A stretch of 30,315 bases of DNA from a virus, in the IMG/VR virus record IMGVR_UViG_3300005519_000309, positions 1-30,315 of that record; one strand, written 5' to 3'. The notes under the pieces were generated by a model that worked only from the letters and a program-made list of their open reading frames with translations, searched no databases and was not told the origin of the DNA. This document shows, piece after piece, positions 574 through 20,871 of this stretch. Positions within the stretch are counted from its first letter, which is position 1; every line of letters starts with the position of its first letter. The translations under genes were made by a program, and so were the position numbers.

Positions 574-1964
574 GCCAGCTCCTTTGCGATGTAGTCGGCC
601 AGCTCGCGCTGCTCTTCGTCCGTGATGTCGCCATCGTCCGCGGGAGGCTGTGACTCAGGTTCAGCAGGTGCGGCAACCGGTGCTGGAGGCGCTGGCGGTG
701 CGATCTTGTTCAGCCGGACCTGGTCCAGCGGGAAGTCCTGCTGTTGCATGTAGACCGTATCGCCTCCGGTCAACGGGGGCAGGTTGAACCCACGGCGCCC
801 CTCGTTCGGCGTCTTCAGGCCCCCGCCCACCAGCTTCACGGCTACATCGGCTTGCGTCGCCGGATCCATACGCAGCAGGTTGTCCAGATCAAGCTCCGTG
901 CGGTACTTGTCAGGCAAGCTCAGACCGTCATCCAGCGCAGCCTCCATCTCCTCGATCAGCGAGTGGAGCGCGTCGTTGAAGTAGATCTGGTTCAGGTCGC
1001 CGACCTTCTGGCCCGTCGGTAGCTGTCCGCCGACTTTGAACAGCGGGACGTGGAAGACCTGCGCCACCATCTCGGCTGTCAGGCCCAGTTGTTCTTTCAT
1101 CTGCGCGTCCACCGCAGTCATGCGGATAGCTTCGTAGCGCAGGCCATCGCCGACCACTGCGACCTTGCCGGCGTTCGGCCCCGTGAAGTTGTTGTTCCAG
1201 TACTCCTTCAGTTCCTTCGCCGTCGGGTCGGAGATCGCGCCAGGCGCAACCAATAGGCCGCTGGGCTTCGCTCCCTGCTTGAAGAAGCGCTGTGAATCTC
1301 GCAGCATTTCCAGGCCACTCGACGCCGGCAGCATGGCCGCATAGAGCGGACCCACACCTACCAGCGGGTGGAAAAGGCAGTTCATCCTGTCGTGGATGAT
1401 TTCGGAGGCAGGCACATAGATAGTCGCCTCCTGCAGGCCGGAGAGGTTGTCCTTGGCCAACTGGTAGAAGATCGACCCGTCCGGCGAGATCATCGGCATC
1501 ACCAGGGCTGGATCGAGGATGTAGAGCGCGACCACGATGCCGCGGCCATCCCGAACCTTCAGCACGTAGGAGTTGCCCCAGATGAGCTTTGAGATGACCC
1601 ACCACTGCTTGAACTGGATCTGGTTCTGATAGTGGTTCGGCCGGCGCAAGACGGGCGAGTATGCGGCGCTGGTCGTCTCGGTCCAGATGCCGTTTTCGCC
1701 CCGCTCCATTAGGCGTGTGCATAGCTTGCCAATGTCGTTCGAGATCACCGTCGCGCACGAGAACACAGCCGGGAAGGACAGCACAGTCTCCGGCCGGACG
1801 TTGATGTCCAGCTGGAAGTACCCCGGTGGTTGTGCCGGGGTGATGTCATGCCAGACACCGCCCGAATTCAGCGACACCAAGCCGCCGGGCTGCACCGTGC
1901 GCGGAGCAATGATGCTGGCCGCCTTGGTACGCGCGCTGTTCACGAGGCGCGACAGTGCGCTCAT
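558..1964 (-). CDS. Phage portal protein, HK97 family
   Basis: 468 aa. It forms the dodecameric ring at the capsid vertex through which DNA is packaged and to which the tail joins. The family is recognised by the PETVLSFPAVFSCATVIS-type helix near residue 60, the RPNHYQ..IQFKQWW segment with GNSYVLKVRD, the SGLEMLRDSQRFFKQGA segment and the VPLFKVG / NQIYFNDALHSLIEEME stretch. The C-terminal 60 residues are rich in Pro and Ala and probably disordered. The start ATG (1962-1964) overlaps the stop of the upstream 78-aa gene as ATGA. Portal follows the capsid gene here instead of preceding protease and capsid as in HK97. Confidence 0.95.
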   Translation of the reverse strand: MSALSRLVNSARTKAASIIAPRTVQPGGLVSLNSGGVWHDITPAQPPGYFQLDINVRPETVLSFPAVFSCATVISNDIGKLCTRLMERGENGIWTETTSAAYSPVLRRPNHYQNQIQFKQWWVISKLIWGNSYVLKVRDGRGIVVALYILDPALVMPMISPDGSIFYQLAKDNLSGLQEATIYVPASEIIHDRMNCLFHPLVGVGPLYAAMLPASSGLEMLRDSQRFFKQGAKPSGLLVAPGAISDPTAKELKEYWNNNFTGPNAGKVAVVGDGLRYEAIRMTAVDAQMKEQLGLTAEMVAQVFHVPLFKVGGQLPTGQKVGDLNQIYFNDALHSLIEEMEAALDDGLSLPDKYRTELDLDNLLRMDPATQADVAVKLVGGGLKTPNEGRRGFNLPPLTGGDTVYMQQQDFPLDQVRLNKIAPPAPPAPVAAPAEPESQPPADDGDITDEEQRELADYIAKELACEPI

Positions 1965-8804: not shown

Positions 8805-10624
8805 TGGGGAACCTCCTGATCTTGGATTGAGAACTCGACGAAGCGCAGCGGGTAGCGCCGTTGGCTGGTGCGGTACTGCATCGAGGGCTTGTCGAACCAG
8901 AGGACCTGCGTGTAGTCCTGCACACCGTCCTCGCGCTGCTTCTTCAGGATCAGCTTCGCGTCGATGTCCGACTGCATGGCTTCCCACGCGGCCACGGCCT
9001 CGGGGTCGTTGGGGTTGGCGGGAGCCTCGTCCTTCTGTGCCCGCCAGATCGAGAACACGTTGTCCGCGCCGTTGACGATGCCGCCGGCACCGGCGACCTC
9101 CATCTTTCCGGGGGCCTCGGCCTCGTCGCGCAGCTTGCGCGGGTGGGCCACCAAGTGGACGTGCACGTTGTGCGTCTTCTTGAACGACACCAACTTCTGC
9201 ACCGCCTCGTTCTGCTTTGTGATCGAGCCAGGCCCGTCCTGGGGTACGTCGATCATCATCAGGCTGTCGATGACGAAGTGCCGCACGCCGTATCGCCGCG
9301 CCGCATACGCGAATACTTCCAGCAGGCGGTCCAGTTTGGCGACGCCCACCAGGTCGAAGATCCAGAGCTTCTCTCGCAGCCAGGCACCAACCGCCTGGAT
9401 GTATTCCCGTGTGGGTCGGTCCAGTCCCGTGGCCTGCTTGTGAATGCGCCTCAGGTGGCGCACAGCACCCATTTCGCCCGAAAAGATCACGACGCGCTCG
9501 CCTTGCAACATCAAGCCGAGCAGGATCTGATCGAGCATCAGGCTCTTGCCGTGCCCGTTGATGCCGGTCCAGCAGGTGTACTCGGCCATGCGGAAGCGAA
9601 ACCACTCCAGCTCCTTGTCGATGTACAGCGCTGGCGCGACAGGTGTTCCCGGCGGCGGATAGAACAGCTCGATGACCGCCTGCGTGTATTCGTCGGCATT
9701 GCGCAGTTCGTCGGGATCGAGCGGACGAGCATCTTCCATTGCCTGCTGGAAATCGACGGCCTCGGCTCCGTCCTGCAGCCACTGGTTGGCGTCCTTGGCG
9801 CCGAGCCGGACACGCCGGCACCGCTCGATGCCCAGGCGGTTGATGACCTCGGCCGCGCCTTTGTCGCCGGGCTCGTCGTTGTCGAAGCAGATCAGGATGT
9901 CGTCGAAGCGCTCCAGCTTCTCCCAGTCCACCTCGATCCACTGGTGATTCCCCGCGCCCTGGTTGACCGACAACGCCGGCACGCGCATCTGATGCAGCGT
10001 CATCGCATCGATCTCGCCCTCGGTGATCGTGACGGTGCGCGCCTTCGGGTCGATCAGGTGCCAGCCGAACAGGCACGGCGCGGCGTCTTTCTCCTGCCGC
10101 ATGTCCTTCTTTTCGTCCGGATTGCGGTACTTGACGTTCACCAGCACGCCAGCCTCGTCGATGAAGGGAAACACTGCGTAGGTCTTGCCGTGCTGCAGCT
10201 GCTCGGCGATCCGGAAGGCCTTGATCGTGTCGTCGGTCAGACCGCGGCCGGTCAGCCACTCGTGAACGCGCCCTTTCGCGGATTGGCACTTCGGTTTCTC
10301 CGGCCGGCGGTAGGCTTTCTCCGGCGGCTTCACCAGGTCATCGCGGATGCAGAAGTGGCGCTTGATGTCCTTCAAGGCCTCGACCATCGACAAGCCACGG
10401 CATGCCATCCAAAGGTCGATCAGGTCCCCACCTTCCCCGCTCGCGAAGTCCTTCCACACCCCGGCCTTGTGCCCGCGGATGGACACCGAAAGGCTGTCTC
10501 CGGGCTCGCCGCTCGTGTTCCCGGCCTTCCACTCGGAGCCTCGCTGCTTGCCCTGCGGCAGCAGCATGCGCGCGACCTCGGCAGCCTGGCTGGCCAGCAT
10601 GTGCTTCAGCTCGATGACGTTCAA
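8801..10624 (-). CDS. Primase-helicase (Toprim plus DnaB-type RecA fold)
   Basis: 607 aa, close to the size of T7 gp4-like and Twinkle proteins. The N-terminal 90 residues look like a CHC2 primase domain (WKDFASGEGGDLIDLWMACRG) but lack its zinc cysteines. The Toprim domain shows ITEGEIDAMTL (Glu about 202) and ICFDNDEPGDKG (Asp 248/250). The helicase domain has Walker A GINGHGKS (Lys about 360), IFSGEMG, FVIDSLMM and HLVAHPRK. It unwinds and primes the phage fork. The start is a TTG (10622-10624) overlapping the initiator stop as TTGA with GAGGTG just upstream. Confidence 0.94.
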   Translation of the reverse strand: MNVIELKHMLASQAAEVARMLLPQGKQRGSEWKAGNTSGEPGDSLSVSIRGHKAGVWKDFASGEGGDLIDLWMACRGLSMVEALKDIKRHFCIRDDLVKPPEKAYRRPEKPKCQSAKGRVHEWLTGRGLTDDTIKAFRIAEQLQHGKTYAVFPFIDEAGVLVNVKYRNPDEKKDMRQEKDAAPCLFGWHLIDPKARTVTITEGEIDAMTLHQMRVPALSVNQGAGNHQWIEVDWEKLERFDDILICFDNDEPGDKGAAEVINRLGIERCRRVRLGAKDANQWLQDGAEAVDFQQAMEDARPLDPDELRNADEYTQAVIELFYPPPGTPVAPALYIDKELEWFRFRMAEYTCWTGINGHGKSLMLDQILLGLMLQGERVVIFSGEMGAVRHLRRIHKQATGLDRPTREYIQAVGAWLREKLWIFDLVGVAKLDRLLEVFAYAARRYGVRHFVIDSLMMIDVPQDGPGSITKQNEAVQKLVSFKKTHNVHVHLVAHPRKLRDEAEAPGKMEVAGAGGIVNGADNVFSIWRAQKDEAPANPNDPEAVAAWEAMQSDIDAKLILKKQREDGVQDYTQVLWFDKPSMQYRTSQRRYPLRFVEFSIQDQEVPQ

Positions 10625-11529
10625 GCAGCCACCTCATCGGGAATCCGCTTGCCGTCACGAAAGTCGCGGTAGTTGCCGATGTGGCAGCGGGCGTTCGCCG
10701 CTTCACCCGGATGCTCGAAGCCGGCTGCCTGCCACCACTGCCGGCCGTCGTCAGTGACCGGCGCAGCCCTGGCCTTCGCGCCCGGAATCTCGTCCTCCCA
10801 TCGGCCTTGGTTGAGCCACGTCGAGGCATGCGGAATGAACCGTCCGTTCTCTCGGGTGTCGAGGTGCGGCTTCTGTGCCGCAAGCGCCCCGAGGATCGTG
10901 GCCTGCAAAGCCGCATCAGGCCTCAGCGTGATCCACGCCTTCGACGCCGCCTTCTTGCCCGCCTTGCGAGGGTACGCCGCGTAAAACGCCTCGAACCCTG
11001 CCAGCACGACGTCGAGGTCAACCGAAGGTTTGCGGGCACGCTGCCCCCCTTGGGGGGTAAGGGGGGTATTTCCGGAATCAGGATTCAGGAATCGGGAATC
11101 AGGAATCAGCCCGATTGCCACGGTGTCGCCACCATCGGTGCACGGTGCTTGCACAGTGCTCGCATCGTGCGAGTCTTGTTCATCGACTATTTCAGCAGCC
11201 TCTTCGCCCGGTCCTGGAATGCTGCTTGCCTTCTCGTCCCTGTGGGGGTTCTGGTGCTTCTCGAAATTCACCACCTGCAGGTATCGCTTGTCACCGTGCT
11301 GATACCGTTCCACCACCCCGATCTGCGCGAGTTCATCCAGGAGCGCATCGCAGTCCAGGTTGTCTGCTGGGAAGAGCTCCATCTTGATTTGCTTGGGGCG
11401 GTCTTCGAGTCGCCCCTTGCGGTCAGCAATCGTCCACAGCCCGATGAAGAGCAGTCGAGCCTCGTAAGGGAGTTCCACCAGGTCCGCGTTGCGAAAGAAG
11501 CCGGGTTTGATGTTTCGTGCGCGGGCCAT
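10621..11529 (-). CDS. Phage replication initiator / helicase-loader type protein
   Basis: 302 aa. The N-terminal winged-helix-like domain reads NIKPGFFRNADLVELPYEARLLFIGLWTIADRKGRL, typical of phage replisome organisers, and ends in QVVNFEKHQNPH. A low-complexity linker (about 95-165) contains the iteron-like DNA repeats. The C-terminal domain (FYAAYPRKAGKKAASKAW..L, FIPHASTWLNQGRWEDE) is the DnaT/helicase-loader-like module seen in these proteins. It would bind the origin and recruit the downstream helicase. The ATG overlaps the upstream stop as TAATG. Confidence 0.88.
   Translation of the reverse strand: MARARNIKPGFFRNADLVELPYEARLLFIGLWTIADRKGRLEDRPKQIKMELFPADNLDCDALLDELAQIGVVERYQHGDKRYLQVVNFEKHQNPHRDEKASSIPGPGEEAAEIVDEQDSHDASTVQAPCTDGGDTVAIGLIPDSRFLNPDSGNTPLTPQGGQRARKPSVDLDVVLAGFEAFYAAYPRKAGKKAASKAWITLRPDAALQATILGALAAQKPHLDTRENGRFIPHASTWLNQGRWEDEIPGAKARAAPVTDDGRQWWQAAGFEHPGEAANARCHIGNYRDFRDGKRIPDEVAA
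11041..11108. repeat. Iteron-like tandem 7-mers and C6/G6 tract inside the initiator gene, candidate ori
   Basis: Five consecutive 7-base units with consensus GGAATCA run from 11074 to 11108 (units 2 and 3 differ by one base each). Just before them are C6-TT-G6 (11044-11057) and a second G6 (11061-11066). The repeats fall in the disordered linker of the initiator, as lambda ori iterons fall inside gene O. Seven is not a multiple of three, so protein repetition does not explain the unit. Confidence 0.55.
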
Positions 11530-11654
11530 TACTGTGATCTCCAGGCTCTGCCCTCATGGGCCATGCACCACATCGCACTCGACCAGGAGCGATGGACGCG
11601 GAGGTAGTAGAGGAAATGCGCGACGTAGATCACGCGATTGATCGGGCCGCGCAT
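11529..11654 (-). CDS. 41-aa Trp-rich small phage protein
   Basis: Starts at the ATG 11652-11654, overlapping the cII stop (TGATG), and stops as TAATG on the initiator start, so it is locked into the operon by coupling at both ends. The product is RVIYVAHFLYYLRVHRSWSS followed by AMWCMAHEGRAWRSQ: a short aromatic, amphipathic helix with three Trp. Small proteins with a FLYYLRxxHSW-like core are seen at this place in other prophages. Function unknown. Confidence 0.7.
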   Translation of the reverse strand: MRGPINRVIYVAHFLYYLRVHRSWSSAMWCMAHEGRAWRSQ

Positions 11655-11953
11655 CAGTCCCACTCCAGGGTGCGAACCGTCTGCACGGCGCTCAGGTGCT
11701 GCTTGGCCATGAGCAGCAGCGCGTCCACATAGTCGGGTGGGAAGCACCGCATATCCTGTGCGACGACTCTCAGGCCTGCATGAGCCATCACCAGCGCTAG
11801 CTTGTCCAAGTGATCGCTGAGCAGCCTGGAGACCGTGGACTCGCTCACCCCCATGGCCGCGGCAATGGCGGTCTGGGAGGCGTCGCGCTGAGTCGCCTTG
11901 AGGATGCTCGACACGATCTTCCGAGCGCGGTCTTCCGGCGGCTCGACGGTCAC
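11654..11953 (-). CDS. cII: CII-like transcriptional activator
   Basis: 99 aa, about the length of lambda CII (97). Residues 25-50 form a helix-turn-helix (QTAIAAAMGVSESTVSRLLSD), followed by the family's LALVMAHAGLRVVAQDM segment, which parallels the SxLLAVLxxGVVDDD part of lambda CII. It would activate promoters for repressor synthesis and lysogeny. The start is GTG (11951-11953) with AAGGAG seven bases upstream; an upstream open frame to 12127 crosses the repeat array and is not used. It opens the early operon and lies next to TTGC-N6-TTGC sites. Confidence 0.85.
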   Translation of the reverse strand: MTVEPPEDRARKIVSSILKATQRDASQTAIAAAMGVSESTVSRLLSDHLDKLALVMAHAGLRVVAQDMRCFPPDYVDALLLMAKQHLSAVQTVRTLEWD

Positions 11954-11954
11954 G

Positions 11955-12055
11955 TTGCAGCTCCTTGCAACGACGTGCGCCAGGTTGCACCTCCATGCGG
12001 CCGCTTGCGGCGCGTGCAAGAGCGTGCTGCAGGTCTTGCTGGTGCTTGCAGGCGA
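11955..12055 (+). repeat. About 10-bp-phased array of TTGC-type motifs (candidate CII sites / pRE-like promoter)
   Basis: TTGC or one-base variants start at 11955, 11965, 11975 (GTGC), 11985, 11995 (ATGC), 12005, 12014 (GTGC), 12024 (GTGC), 12036 and 12046: nine intervals, seven of them about 10 bases (six exactly 10, one 9) and two of 10 and 12 around 12014-12036. Pairs 11955/11965 and 12036/12046 are perfect TTGC-N6-TTGC, the direct repeat bound by lambda CII. They lie on the plus strand, pointing toward the repressor and antisense to cro, immediately upstream of the cII start. No good -10 hexamer follows. Confidence 0.65.
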
Positions 12056-12076
12056 GCGCGCCCAGACTGCCGAGTC

Positions 12077-12304
12077 ATGAAAACACCCCATGCCCTGCCA
12101 GCCGCCCACGACCCGGACCTCATCCACAACAGCACGCGCACAACGCTGAGCACCAATGCCGATCCGAACGGACGAGCCCCGGCGCGAGTGATGCTGCGCA
12201 CCAGCAGGTTGGTGATTCGGTGGTTGGACGGTGACGTGGACGTGCGGTTTGCCGCACAGGATGTCGATGTCACCCGTTCATCCGGCCCGCGGAGGGTCAA
12301 GTGA
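12077..12304 (+). CDS. Small protein antisense to the cro-cII spacer
   Basis: 75 aa; not recognised. It fills the space between the TTGC array and the end of cro, on the repressor strand. The second half reads as ordinary globular sequence (RVMLRTSRLVIRWLDGDVDVRFAAQDVDV). It starts 28 bases after the last TTGC repeat, so it would be the first gene of a CII-activated transcript. The ribosome site is weak (GCCGAG). The frame is open further upstream, but that part overlaps cII and looks like a shadow. The minus strand is also open here and could be the real reading. Confidence 0.4.
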   Translation: MKTPHALPAAHDPDLIHNSTRTTLSTNADPNGRAPARVMLRTSRLVIRWLDGDVDVRFAAQDVDVTRSSGPRRVK

Positions 12305-12316
12305 TGAGCGCGCACG

Positions 12317-12544
12317 TTATTCCTCTGCCAAGCTCGCAGCCAGCGCAGCCTCGGCTGCAGCCACCTGGGCTGCTATCTGGCGCTTTCGACGCGCATACGC
12401 CCCCTCAACGCGATCAGCGATACGGCGTGGAAGCTCGTCAGGCCACTTGTGGACCGCGGCGTATGACACCCCGAGGGTCTTCGCCGCAGCAGACACAGTG
12501 CCGCCCAAAAGTTCGATGGCGAGATGCTTCTTCATGGTCCGCAT
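12317..12544 (-). CDS. cro: Cro-like repressor
   Basis: 75 aa, the size of Cro proteins. The N-terminal helix-turn-helix is AIELLGGTVSAAAKTLGVSYAAVHKWPDELP with the AVxxW recognition helix, then RIADRVEGAYARRKR and an Ala-rich C-terminal helix, as in the P22 Cro/YdaS group. It is divergent from the XRE repressor with a 71-base operator region between. The first ATG (12542-12544) and a second at codon 4 are both possible; neither has a strong ribosome site. Confidence 0.85.
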   Translation of the reverse strand: MRTMKKHLAIELLGGTVSAAAKTLGVSYAAVHKWPDELPRRIADRVEGAYARRKRQIAAQVAAAEAALAASLAEE

Positions 12545-12585
12545 TTAATCATGAGCCAATTTTGCTTTCAACAATTATTTCCACA

Positions 12586-12613
12586 GTTATCCGGCGGTCT
12601 GGCACAATATCAA
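12586..12613 (-). promoter_or_regulatory. Early promoter (pR-like) in the cro-repressor operator region
   Basis: On the minus strand TTGATA (12608-12613) and GATAAC (12586-12591) are spaced 16 bases, about 40 bases upstream of the cro start. A 10-base palindrome AACCATGGTT (12612-12621) overlaps the -35 and the repressor start codon. The 71-base spacer also has AT-rich stretches around 12560-12580. No clear set of three operator copies is visible. The plus-strand repressor promoter is not resolved (a CAATAT at 12605-12610 could be its -10). Confidence 0.45.
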
Positions 12614-12615
12614 CC

Positions 12616-12978
12616 ATGGTTAATGCACTCACCTACAGCGACCGGCTCCGGCTGGCCCTCTCCGAGCGAAAGATGTCGCCAAGCGCCCTTGCGGCAGCTC
12701 TGGGAATCTCCGCAGCGGCTGTCAGCAAAGTGATGCTGGGCAGCAGCAAGACGCTGAGCGTCGAGAACCACATACGGGCGTCTCGAGTTCTCGGGATCAG
12801 CCCCGAGTGGCTGGTGGAGGGAGATGGGGAGATGGAGCCCGGCACCGCCCCGATTCCCGCCCAATCGGTAGCCAATGCTGAAGAAGCGGAGTTGGTCCAG
12901 ATCTACCGGTCGCTGGGCGAGGCTCAGCAGGCAGCGATGCTCGCAATGGCACGCGGCCTTAAGAGCGCGAAGCGGTAG
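12616..12978 (+). CDS. XRE-family repressor 1 (CI-like, no peptidase domain)
   Basis: 120 aa from the ATG at 12616. The upstream extension to 12301 crosses cro antisense and is not used. Residues 7-65 form a HTH_3 domain (LRLALSERKMSPSALAAALGISAAAVSKVMLGSSKTLSVENHIRASRVLGISPEWLVEGDG). A short helical tail (EEAELVQIYRSLGEAQQAAMLAMARGL) probably dimerises. The S24/LexA-like self-cleavage domain is absent, so SOS cleavage of this protein is unlikely. It faces cro across the operator region and is the best candidate prophage repressor. Confidence 0.85.
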   Translation: MVNALTYSDRLRLALSERKMSPSALAAALGISAAAVSKVMLGSSKTLSVENHIRASRVLGISPEWLVEGDGEMEPGTAPIPAQSVANAEEAELVQIYRSLGEAQQAAMLAMARGLKSAKR

Positions 12979-12983
12979 CGGCC

Positions 12984-13403
12984 ATGTCCATTGGCAGTCG
13001 CATCCGAGAGCAAAGATGCGAGATTGGTTGGAGCCAGGTTCAGCTGGCAGACGAGGCCGGTGTAACGCAGAGCGCCATCGGAAACATCGAGTCTGGCCTG
13101 AGGCAGCGCCCGCGGGAACTCGTGTCCATCGCCAAGGCGTTGCGTGTCTCCCCGGAGTGGTTGGAGACTGGAAAGGGGCCGAAGACCGAACGACCGCCGC
13201 TCCAGTTCGTCGGAGCTGATGCCGAGCCTTCAGTGCGAGCGCTGGTGGAGTACTTGGCCGAGATCGCCGCTCAGCAGCGTCCAACTCTTCGAAAGAATTT
13301 GGCCAACCTGCTGGTCGATCTGGTCGAGCATCCGGAGGACACGACGTTCATCGAGCAGACCATCGCGGACATCGAGCGGTTCTTCCCGCCTCAAGCGAAA
13401 TAG
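12984..13403 (+). CDS. XRE-family repressor 2 in tandem
   Basis: 139 aa. The HTH_3 domain occupies residues 3-62 (IREQRCEIGWSQVQLADEAGVTQSAIGNIESGLRQRP, VSPEWLETGKGP). The C-terminal half is helical (VRALVEYLAEIAAQQRPTLRKNLANLLVDL). It lies five bases after repressor 1, so both are one operon. Again no peptidase domain. The two share the LGISPEWLxEG / LRVSPEWLETG end of the domain, so they may be ancient paralogues or form heterodimers. Confidence 0.88.
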   Translation: MSIGSRIREQRCEIGWSQVQLADEAGVTQSAIGNIESGLRQRPRELVSIAKALRVSPEWLETGKGPKTERPPLQFVGADAEPSVRALVEYLAEIAAQQRPTLRKNLANLLVDLVEHPEDTTFIEQTIADIERFFPPQAK

Positions 13404-13429
13404 CAGGGTTCTCGCTCAGTCGGACGCTG

Positions 13430-13446
13430 TAACTAAAAGTTATAGT
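13430..13446 (+). promoter_or_regulatory. Palindrome and -10 element ahead of the first moron gene
   Basis: TAACT-AAA-AGTTA is a perfect inverted repeat (13430-13442), and TATAGT (13441-13446) is one base from a consensus -10 hexamer. The gene's ATG is at 13470 behind GAGGAG. No good -35 is visible. This suggests an independent promoter, possibly expressed in the lysogen and controlled at the palindrome. Confidence 0.5.
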
Positions 13447-13469
13447 GGGCGAAACTTAGAGGAGAAAAT

Positions 13470-13865
13470 ATGTTCGGGGGGATGAAAATCACCGGCGGAA
13501 GCTTTGGCACGGACGGATACGCCTACGTCAAGGGAGATGCCTTCGACATTCGGAGCTCGCGCAAACAGCTTTACCCGCTCACATCGATTGCACGGGTCGA
13601 TGCTCGCACCGAATCTCAGAAGAACTTCGGTTGCTTCTCGTTCGTACTCGGCGCGGTGATCTTTGGCTTCATTTTGAACGCGGTGATTCCGGGGATTGGC
13701 TTCATCATCGGCATCGTTGTCGCAGCAGCACTGTCGTTCTACACCACAAAAAAGCAGATCGTAGAAGTCAGTTTCTCCGATGGGATGCGGGTCGTTGTCC
13801 AGTGCTCAAATGGTCAGGTTCGCAAGCTTGTGAGCTTACCTATGACACAGTCGATCAGTCGCTAG
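13470..13865 (+). CDS. Two-helix membrane protein with PH-like flanks (moron)
   Basis: 131 aa with a strong GAGGAG ribosome site. The first 45 residues look like beta strands (YAYVKGDAFDIRSSRKQLYPLTSIARVDA). Residues 52-90 are two adjacent transmembrane helices (FSFVLGAVIFGFILNAVIPGI / GFIIGIVVAAALSFY), and the rest is a second beta part (IVEVSFSDGMRVVVQCS). Short proteins of this layout (PH-like strands around paired helices) are common uncharacterised membrane proteins in mobile elements. A role in superinfection exclusion is inferred only from its place directly after the repressors with its own promoter. Confidence 0.75.
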   Translation: MFGGMKITGGSFGTDGYAYVKGDAFDIRSSRKQLYPLTSIARVDARTESQKNFGCFSFVLGAVIFGFILNAVIPGIGFIIGIVVAAALSFYTTKKQIVEVSFSDGMRVVVQCSNGQVRKLVSLPMTQSISR

Positions 13866-19500: not shown

Positions 19501-20871
19501 ATGGCGAGCACTGCAGAGCCGCAATCCCCCGACCATCTCAATAGAGGAGCCTTCCTGGCTGCAATGGAGAGCAACATCGAGGTGCTCGCAAAGGTGCCGT
19601 CAGATCGCTTGGCTACCCCGAGGGTCATCGCGGTTGATGCTCAATGGGGCGACGGAAAGACTTGGATCGCAACCGAATTAGCACGGCGACTTCGCGGGCC
19701 CGACGGAACCCGACCAGTGGTCTCCATCGATGTCTTTCGGTATGACCACCATGATGACCCGTTCGCGGTGATTGCGGCAGCGATCTATGAAGCACTCAAG
19801 CCAACCTCAGCCGTAAAGAAAAAATTCCTGGAAGCGGCGGGAGCGGTGCTCAAGAGCGCAGCTCCGGTCGCGGCCAAGGCGGGAATTACCCTTGGCGCCC
19901 GAGCCATCGGACTCTCCGCGGACGACACCGATGAGTTGACCAAAGGCGCTGTAGGTGCGCTCAAAGACAGCGCAGGGTCGTTCTCGGAAAAAGCAGTCGA
20001 GAAGCTCTTCGACTCCTACTCCGCCACCGAGCGCATTCAGAAAAATTTCATGCAGATGCTAAGCGAGTTGACCAACAAGCTGGACCAACCGTTGGTAGTG
20101 CTTGTGGACGAACTCGACCGATGCCGCCCTTCATTCGCGCTTGAGGTACTTGAACGAATCAAACACCTTTTCGGTGCAGAGAACGTCGTCTTCGTTCTCT
20201 TTTGGAATTCCCGCTCCATTCACGAGTCAATTCGTCATACCTATGGCCCGGGAACTGACGCTACCAACTACCTGGCCAAGTTTGTTGCATTCAGTATTCC
20301 ACTGGAGCTAGAAACACCTAGAGGAACCACCATTGGGCGAAGGTTCATGACTTTCATACGCGCGATGGGGGAACTCCACTTTAAAAGCAAGGTGATGAGT
20401 CACGACTTTTGTGATGCCATGATCGAGGCGAGCGGCATACTTAATCCCAGCCTTCGGCAAATTCAACAAACCATCCAGCTCACTGAGCAACTCAAAGTCT
20501 TAGAAACTCAAGGCGAACCGTGGCCCACTGTATCGGCGTATCTTTTGCTCCTTAGAACGATGGATCGAGAACGTTTTGATCGAATTATTTCGCTTGACCC
20601 TCAGTCGGCACGGATCGAGGCTGCCATGATAGCCAATGCATTCAAGAGCGCCCCGAGGCAGGATTTGAGCCAACTTCACGTAATCTTCACCTACATCGCC
20701 GACCGGGAGCGATTAGATGAGCTGGCAAAGGCCATTCGAACGAGAACGTGCGATGCAGGCACACTTACCGACGAAGACCGGCACCTACTGAGCGACACAG
20801 ATATGGGCAAATCGATCCCCCTGTTTCAGCAGCACGGGAAAAGCATTTTCGAACCATTAACTTCTAGCTAG
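19501..20871 (+). CDS. KAP-family P-loop NTPase
   Basis: 456 aa. Walker A is AQWGDGKT (Lys 53), matching the KAP (E)WGxGKT consensus; Walker B is VVLVDELDRCRP (Asp 203), the KAP hallmark DELDRC; then VFVLFWNSRSIHESI and YLAKFVAFSIPL. Most family members carry transmembrane helices between the Walker motifs; here that insert (about 105-165) is Ala/Gly rich but not clearly membrane-spanning. GGAG lies seven bases before the ATG. Family members act in phage exclusion and other defence contexts. It is convergent with an HNH gene 30 bases away. Confidence 0.88.
   Translation: MASTAEPQSPDHLNRGAFLAAMESNIEVLAKVPSDRLATPRVIAVDAQWGDGKTWIATELARRLRGPDGTRPVVSIDVFRYDHHDDPFAVIAAAIYEALKPTSAVKKKFLEAAGAVLKSAAPVAAKAGITLGARAIGLSADDTDELTKGAVGALKDSAGSFSEKAVEKLFDSYSATERIQKNFMQMLSELTNKLDQPLVVLVDELDRCRPSFALEVLERIKHLFGAENVVFVLFWNSRSIHESIRHTYGPGTDATNYLAKFVAFSIPLELETPRGTTIGRRFMTFIRAMGELHFKSKVMSHDFCDAMIEASGILNPSLRQIQQTIQLTEQLKVLETQGEPWPTVSAYLLLLRTMDRERFDRIISLDPQSARIEAAMIANAFKSAPRQDLSQLHVIFTYIADRERLDELAKAIRTRTCDAGTLTDEDRHLLSDTDMGKSIPLFQQHGKSIFEPLTSS

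Follow-up and report, generated by a model that had tools for sequence, protein, structure and literature searches.

Why does the DNA analyzed here (the window: the whole stretch of 30,315 nucleotides of viral record IMGVR_UViG_3300005519_000309) place ten CII-type half-sites beside one cII gene, when in lambda one site serves each CII promoter and the choice between lysis and lysogeny classically takes the dose of CII as its input? A preliminary description, made from the letters of the window, took them for an amplified copy of pRE, standing in the place homologous to the lambda site and reading antisense to cro into cI. The sequence provides the array, the conservation of its phase, the CII homology, the promoter geometry and the coding character of a neighboring small gene, orfX, and from these a somewhat different answer emerges that we consider probable: the gap between cII and orfX would be a CII-responsive control region, in which the last pair of half-sites activates a pRE-like promoter and the sites upstream of it load several CII tetramers. 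The genes concerned are the following.

10,621 to 11,529, minus strand: replication initiator gene (family searches)
11,654 to 11,953, minus strand: cII, 99 amino acids, GTG start, CII-like activator (PHROG, Pfam and PDB profile)
12,077 to 12,304, plus strand: orfX, 75 amino acids, an unannotated small conserved protein (conserved frame in relatives)
12,317 to 12,544, minus strand: cro-like gene, P22_Cro (Pfam)
12,619 to 12,978, plus strand: helix-turn-helix (HTH) repressor gene, reachable by the pRE-like transcript (family searches; no plus-strand terminator-like site between)

The cro-like, cII and replication initiator genes all lie on the minus strand in a CII-type gene order (primase/helicase is on the minus strand as well), and cII and orfX diverge from each other across 123 bases. 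Its HTH homology makes the product of 11,654-11,953 a genuine CII relative, and the name cII given to the gene in the preliminary description is upheld by PHROG 725 (E 2.6e-19), by Pfam Phage_CII (PF05269; 21.5 bits against a cut-off of 21.3) and by PDB profiles, in which chains of lambda CII are the best matches (E 1e-4). The nearest named relative is the CII of phage D3 (41% identical), and the structural model (mean pLDDT 69) has lambda CII as its top fold matches (1zs4, 1xwr, 8igr), at E about 0.01 or weaker. The gene is preceded by a minus-strand ribosome-binding site, AAGGAG at 11,961-11,966, seven bases upstream of the GTG. HTH repressor-type genes on the plus strand start at 12,619 and 12,984; these two consecutive short genes (12,619-13,403; 119 and 139 amino acids), neither with a peptidase domain match, occupy a place in which a single cI was to be expected. 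Within the replication initiator gene, the segment 11,040-11,164 carries a G-run and the repeats GAATCAGGATTCAGGAATCGGGAATCAGGAATCAG (11,070-11,110), followed by GTGC/CAC in 11-base steps, and looks like a replication origin of the lambda-O type.

The array itself occupies one line of the feature list.

11,955 to 12,049, plus strand: ten helically phased nTGC half-sites (motif positions, Markov controls, relatives)

Its half-sites start at 11,955, 11,965, 11,975, 11,985, 11,995, 12,005, 12,014, 12,024, 12,036 and 12,046, giving intervals of 10, 10, 10, 10, 10, 9, 10, 12 and 10, so that seven of the nine (not six, as first counted) are exactly 10 bases and the others 9 and 12; the two perfect TTGC-N6-TTGC pairs reported earlier are indeed present, at 11,955-11,968 and 12,036-12,049. 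Nowhere else in the window are TTGC and TGC so densely clustered. Six TGC follow one another at a step of exactly 10, where 500 copies of the window from a third-order Markov model reach at most 4, and ten form a chain at steps of 9-12, where 300 Markov copies reach at most 6 and the opposite strand 3; the TTGC-N6-TTGC pair pattern, of which the window has four matches against 1.5 expected, is not significant alone. The array is real and far beyond chance, and the phasing by about one helical turn that had been noticed earlier withstood these controls. Tandem Repeats Finder reported no repeat unit within it, so it is a phased motif and not a duplicated sequence.

Scanning viral and genome collections yielded about twenty relatives with a CII 77-100% identical to that of the window, Variovorax sp. 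KBW07 among them, and the carriers of the array form a group of Variovorax-type (Burkholderiales) prophages. Their cII-orfX intergenic regions align almost without gaps, and when conservation was scored over 19 distinct sequences, anchored on the -10 box described below, the half-site columns averaged 1.48 bits of information and the spacers 0.94 bits; conservation oscillates with a 10-base period, and no cyclic shift of the half-site pattern beats the true phase. Since half-site columns are so much more conserved than spacers, the phase is under selection, and this persistence of phase despite spacer divergence is the strongest evidence that the array has a function. Phase conservation was a check that the preliminary description had proposed, and its outcome is favorable: nearly all relatives share the spacing series read from the promoter (10, 12, 10, 9, 10, 10, 10, 10, 10), unchanged or displaced by one, and the span of the ten half-sites is held at 91 bases. 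Conservation at the cII end may be due in part to the cII ribosome site. One relative (L152) has a partly decayed array, and another with a more distant CII (L176) has a slightly different spacing series and several TTCC half-sites; alongside the latter its CII recognition helix reads GMPESTLSR versus GVSESTVSR, a single case suggestive of co-change between helix and half-site. A wider search for arrays around other cII genes, in which an HMM of the window's CII family was run on 209 viral loci listed from two pattern scans, recognized the window-family CII in two of the loci listed (L245, L299), and another CII case in a third, L068.

How such an array could act on transcription depends on the pair nearest to orfX.

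12,036 to 12,049, plus strand: TTGC-N6-TTGC, putative activating CII site with pRE geometry (-35 region 12,040-12,045, 17-base spacer)
12,063 to 12,068, plus strand: -10 box CAGACT, 13 bases after the 12,036-12,049 pair
12,074 to 12,076, plus strand: predicted transcription start (from -10 spacing and the lambda pRE layout), 0-3 bases before the orfX ATG

This is the only pair of the array laid out like the lambda/D3 pRE site, the other eight half-sites lying upstream and reaching the cII ribosome site. The full pattern (TTGC-N6-TTGC, N13, then a -10 whose second base is A and sixth base T) has a single match in the window, at 12,036, against an expectation of 0.11, and in lambda pRE the distance between CII site and -10 is likewise N13. 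Among relatives TCTTGCTGG at this pair is nearly invariant, the second half-site is mostly TTCC, AGACT of the -10 box is invariant in all that bear the array, and in all of these the orfX ATG stands exactly 8 bases past AGACT. CAGACT resembles the -10 consensus only weakly, and a general promoter scan found nothing. Candidates for int- or Q-type CII promoters were sought in the window and rejected, the TTGC-N6-TTGC at 19,561 (minus) and 21,702 (plus) having no -10 at the right distance.

The pair lies 83-96 bases upstream of the cII start, outside the 5' part of the gene, whereas D3 and other distant relatives (L018, L019, L021) have a single pair inside cII, at about codons 9-14; the window family has lost this intragenic pair, and its array is wholly upstream of cII. 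It follows that the site would be pRE-like in its working and lies in a non-homologous place, and the homologous position originally assigned to the array must be given up. The idea of an amplified pRE element survives for one pair, with its exact geometry and conserved -10, but the remainder lies upstream of the promoter. Orientation confirms that the motif is on the repressor-directed strand and fits a transcript crossing cro antisense toward the repressor gene, with no plus-strand terminator-like site from 11,500 to 13,500; what the earlier reading of this transcript missed is that orfX would come first.

The orfX frame (75-91 amino acids) is conserved across array-bearing relatives, with dN/dS of about 0.1-0.3 among the nearer ones, and it has no evident ribosome site. 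With the ATG 8 bases after the -10, the predicted mRNA would be leaderless or nearly so, and we infer a leader of zero to about three bases, assuming a normal distance from -10 to start. The protein matched no known family in the family libraries and nothing in the phage record collection; its model (mean pLDDT 82) shows a beta sheet of three strands, for which a fold search returned no convincing structural match. In two relatives (L010 and L008) orfX passes into unrelated sequence after about 50 and about 31 codons, respectively, suggesting recombination junctions inside the gene. More distant relatives of orfX are found in unrelated prophages of the Burkholderiales, both in genomes of the Comamonas family and in viral contigs. 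There it stands head to head with CII, the start codons nearly coincident (L185), with CII of the CP76 type (PF06892; by Pfam in L192, L194 and L198, by eye in L193, L197 and L210) or, in L186, L191, L195, L196 and L199, with other small genes. Around position 3,959 of L185, a promoter-like layout, TTGC-N6-TTTC-N13-GACGAT, is seen inside cII (minus), with orfX on the plus strand. PF06892 is a Pfam family unrelated to PF05269, and the company of unrelated lysogeny activators suggests a role for orfX in lysogeny establishment.

The eight half-sites upstream of the promoter, many of which are NTGC and thus looser than canonical TTGC, make up, on one reading, a further four pairs of CII size at a pitch of 19-22 bases.

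12,014 to 12,027, plus strand: candidate CII site B, GTGC-N6-GTGC (proposed pairing)
11,995 to 12,008, plus strand: candidate CII site C, ATGC-N6-TTGC (proposed pairing)
11,975 to 11,988, plus strand: candidate CII site D, GTGC-N6-TTGC (proposed pairing)
11,955 to 11,968, plus strand: candidate CII site E, TTGC-N6-TTGC (proposed pairing), overlapping the cII ribosome-binding site

From the 12,036 pair upstream, the pairs are 22, 19, 20 and 20 bases apart, start to start. In the window and in most relatives the two intervals other than 10 (12 and 9) separate proposed pairs, which would be the case if a pair required exactly 10 bases and neighboring tetramers tolerated slack; in three relatives (L014, L016, L151) the 9-base interval is displaced one step and now falls inside a proposed pair, which makes the split into five tetramer sites uncertain. 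From this arrangement we infer CII binding, its cooperativity, the start site and read-through. An early transcript running from cro to cII would yield CII, which on the 12,036-12,049 pair around the -35 would recruit RNA polymerase to 12,063-12,068, as lambda CII does at pRE, and the transcript would begin at about 12,075, two bases or so ahead of the orfX ATG. Its orfX message would be read leaderless or nearly so, and it would first cover orfX, then run antisense to cro and then enter the HTH repressor gene at 12,619. Upstream, the eight half-sites would make about four CII-sized sites at roughly a two-turn pitch on one face of the DNA, where several tetramers would most likely sit side by side and make activation steeper with CII dose; the loaded array might also hinder opposing transcription of cII. 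The fullest form of this proposal, five tandem CII sites on one DNA face, at and upstream of the pRE-type promoter, as a multi-tetramer dose sensor firing a leaderless orfX that encodes a new beta-sheet lysogeny-establishment factor, one that stands head to head with CII-type regulators of unrelated families in Burkholderiales prophages, we put forward tentatively and with some doubt.

Could the upstream half-sites serve a different end? They might bind CII mainly to repress or pause transcription of cII, a negative feedback in which 12,036-12,049 alone activates; the array does reach the cII ribosome site and crosses the path of the cro-cII transcript, and the geometry lets only one pair touch the promoter, but the one-way orientation of the motif equally fits aid to activation toward orfX, and we regard this reading as unlikely, if worth keeping in view. 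Binding of the upstream array by another protein, of phage or host, with CII using the last pair only, would suit the looser NTGC half-sites; it is a good deal harder to square with upstream half-sites that share the motif, strand and 10-base step of the CII pair and are contiguous with it, in an array seen, among the loci scanned, only in phages with the window's CII subfamily, and we hold it quite improbable.

Two further explanations remain. If cII is transcribed from a promoter upstream of cro, the array lies in the cII leader RNA, where GCA repeats might fold or bind a protein, but the consensus fold obtained is a weak one (-5.5 kcal/mol, covariation term -0.07) and the spacing of the pattern is that of a DNA turn, leaving this very improbable. 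Scarcely credible is a neutral remnant of slippage or coding: TGC is frequent in GC-rich DNA and several relatives have one open frame upstream of cII, but there is no tandem unit, the frame is closed in relatives such as L016 and L148 (open frames of only 103 and 110 amino acids), and a phase kept while spacers diverge, with its rhythm of conservation, contradicts neutrality. A protein-coding origin of the array was rejected, since L016 and its relatives do not preserve the frame that runs through it. The CII-responsive control region remains our preferred reading.

CII and pRE are classical, and as far as the records and literature searched show, neither a phased multi-site operator of this kind nor a leaderless orfX has been described: a literature search for CII arrays or for a leaderless gene driven by pRE brought up nothing relevant, and the window DNA is absent from the phage and plasmid record collections searched. 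An array of ten half-sites with conserved phase would allow a direct test of whether stacked CII sites make the response to multiplicity of infection or to CII dose sharper, and orfX represents an unannotated protein family, first on the predicted establishment transcript and placed beside CII-type regulators of two unrelated families.

The likeness to lambda pRE extends to a CII-family activator, TTGC-N6-TTGC around the -35, a 17-base spacer, a non-consensus -10 and a direction antisense to cro, toward the repressor. However, the one lambda site lies within the first part of cII, whereas the window has ten half-sites, intergenic and upstream of cII, and its promoter leads straight into a small conserved gene. 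The canonical TTGCN6TTGC flanks the -35 at lambda pRE, pI and paQ (PMC4651098). Pseudomonas phage D3, with an annotated CII site and a pE, has the identical TTGC-N6-TTGC-N13-(-10) spacing, but its site is intragenic and has one pair only. More than one TTGC-N6-TTGC at one place is also on record for Salmonella phage epsilon34, for which two sites were reported upstream of gtrA (PMC2629481); these are two predicted sites compared with a ten-step array, and the target gene is another. Finally, L068, a phage contig, has a CII-like gene (PHROG 725, E 1.7e-8; about 1,565-1,855, minus strand) whose first codons are overlaid by four TTGC set exactly 10 bases apart, and differs in that the sites lie inside the gene, the steps are four and no orfX is seen; it is possibly an independent multiplication, another multi-site pRE.
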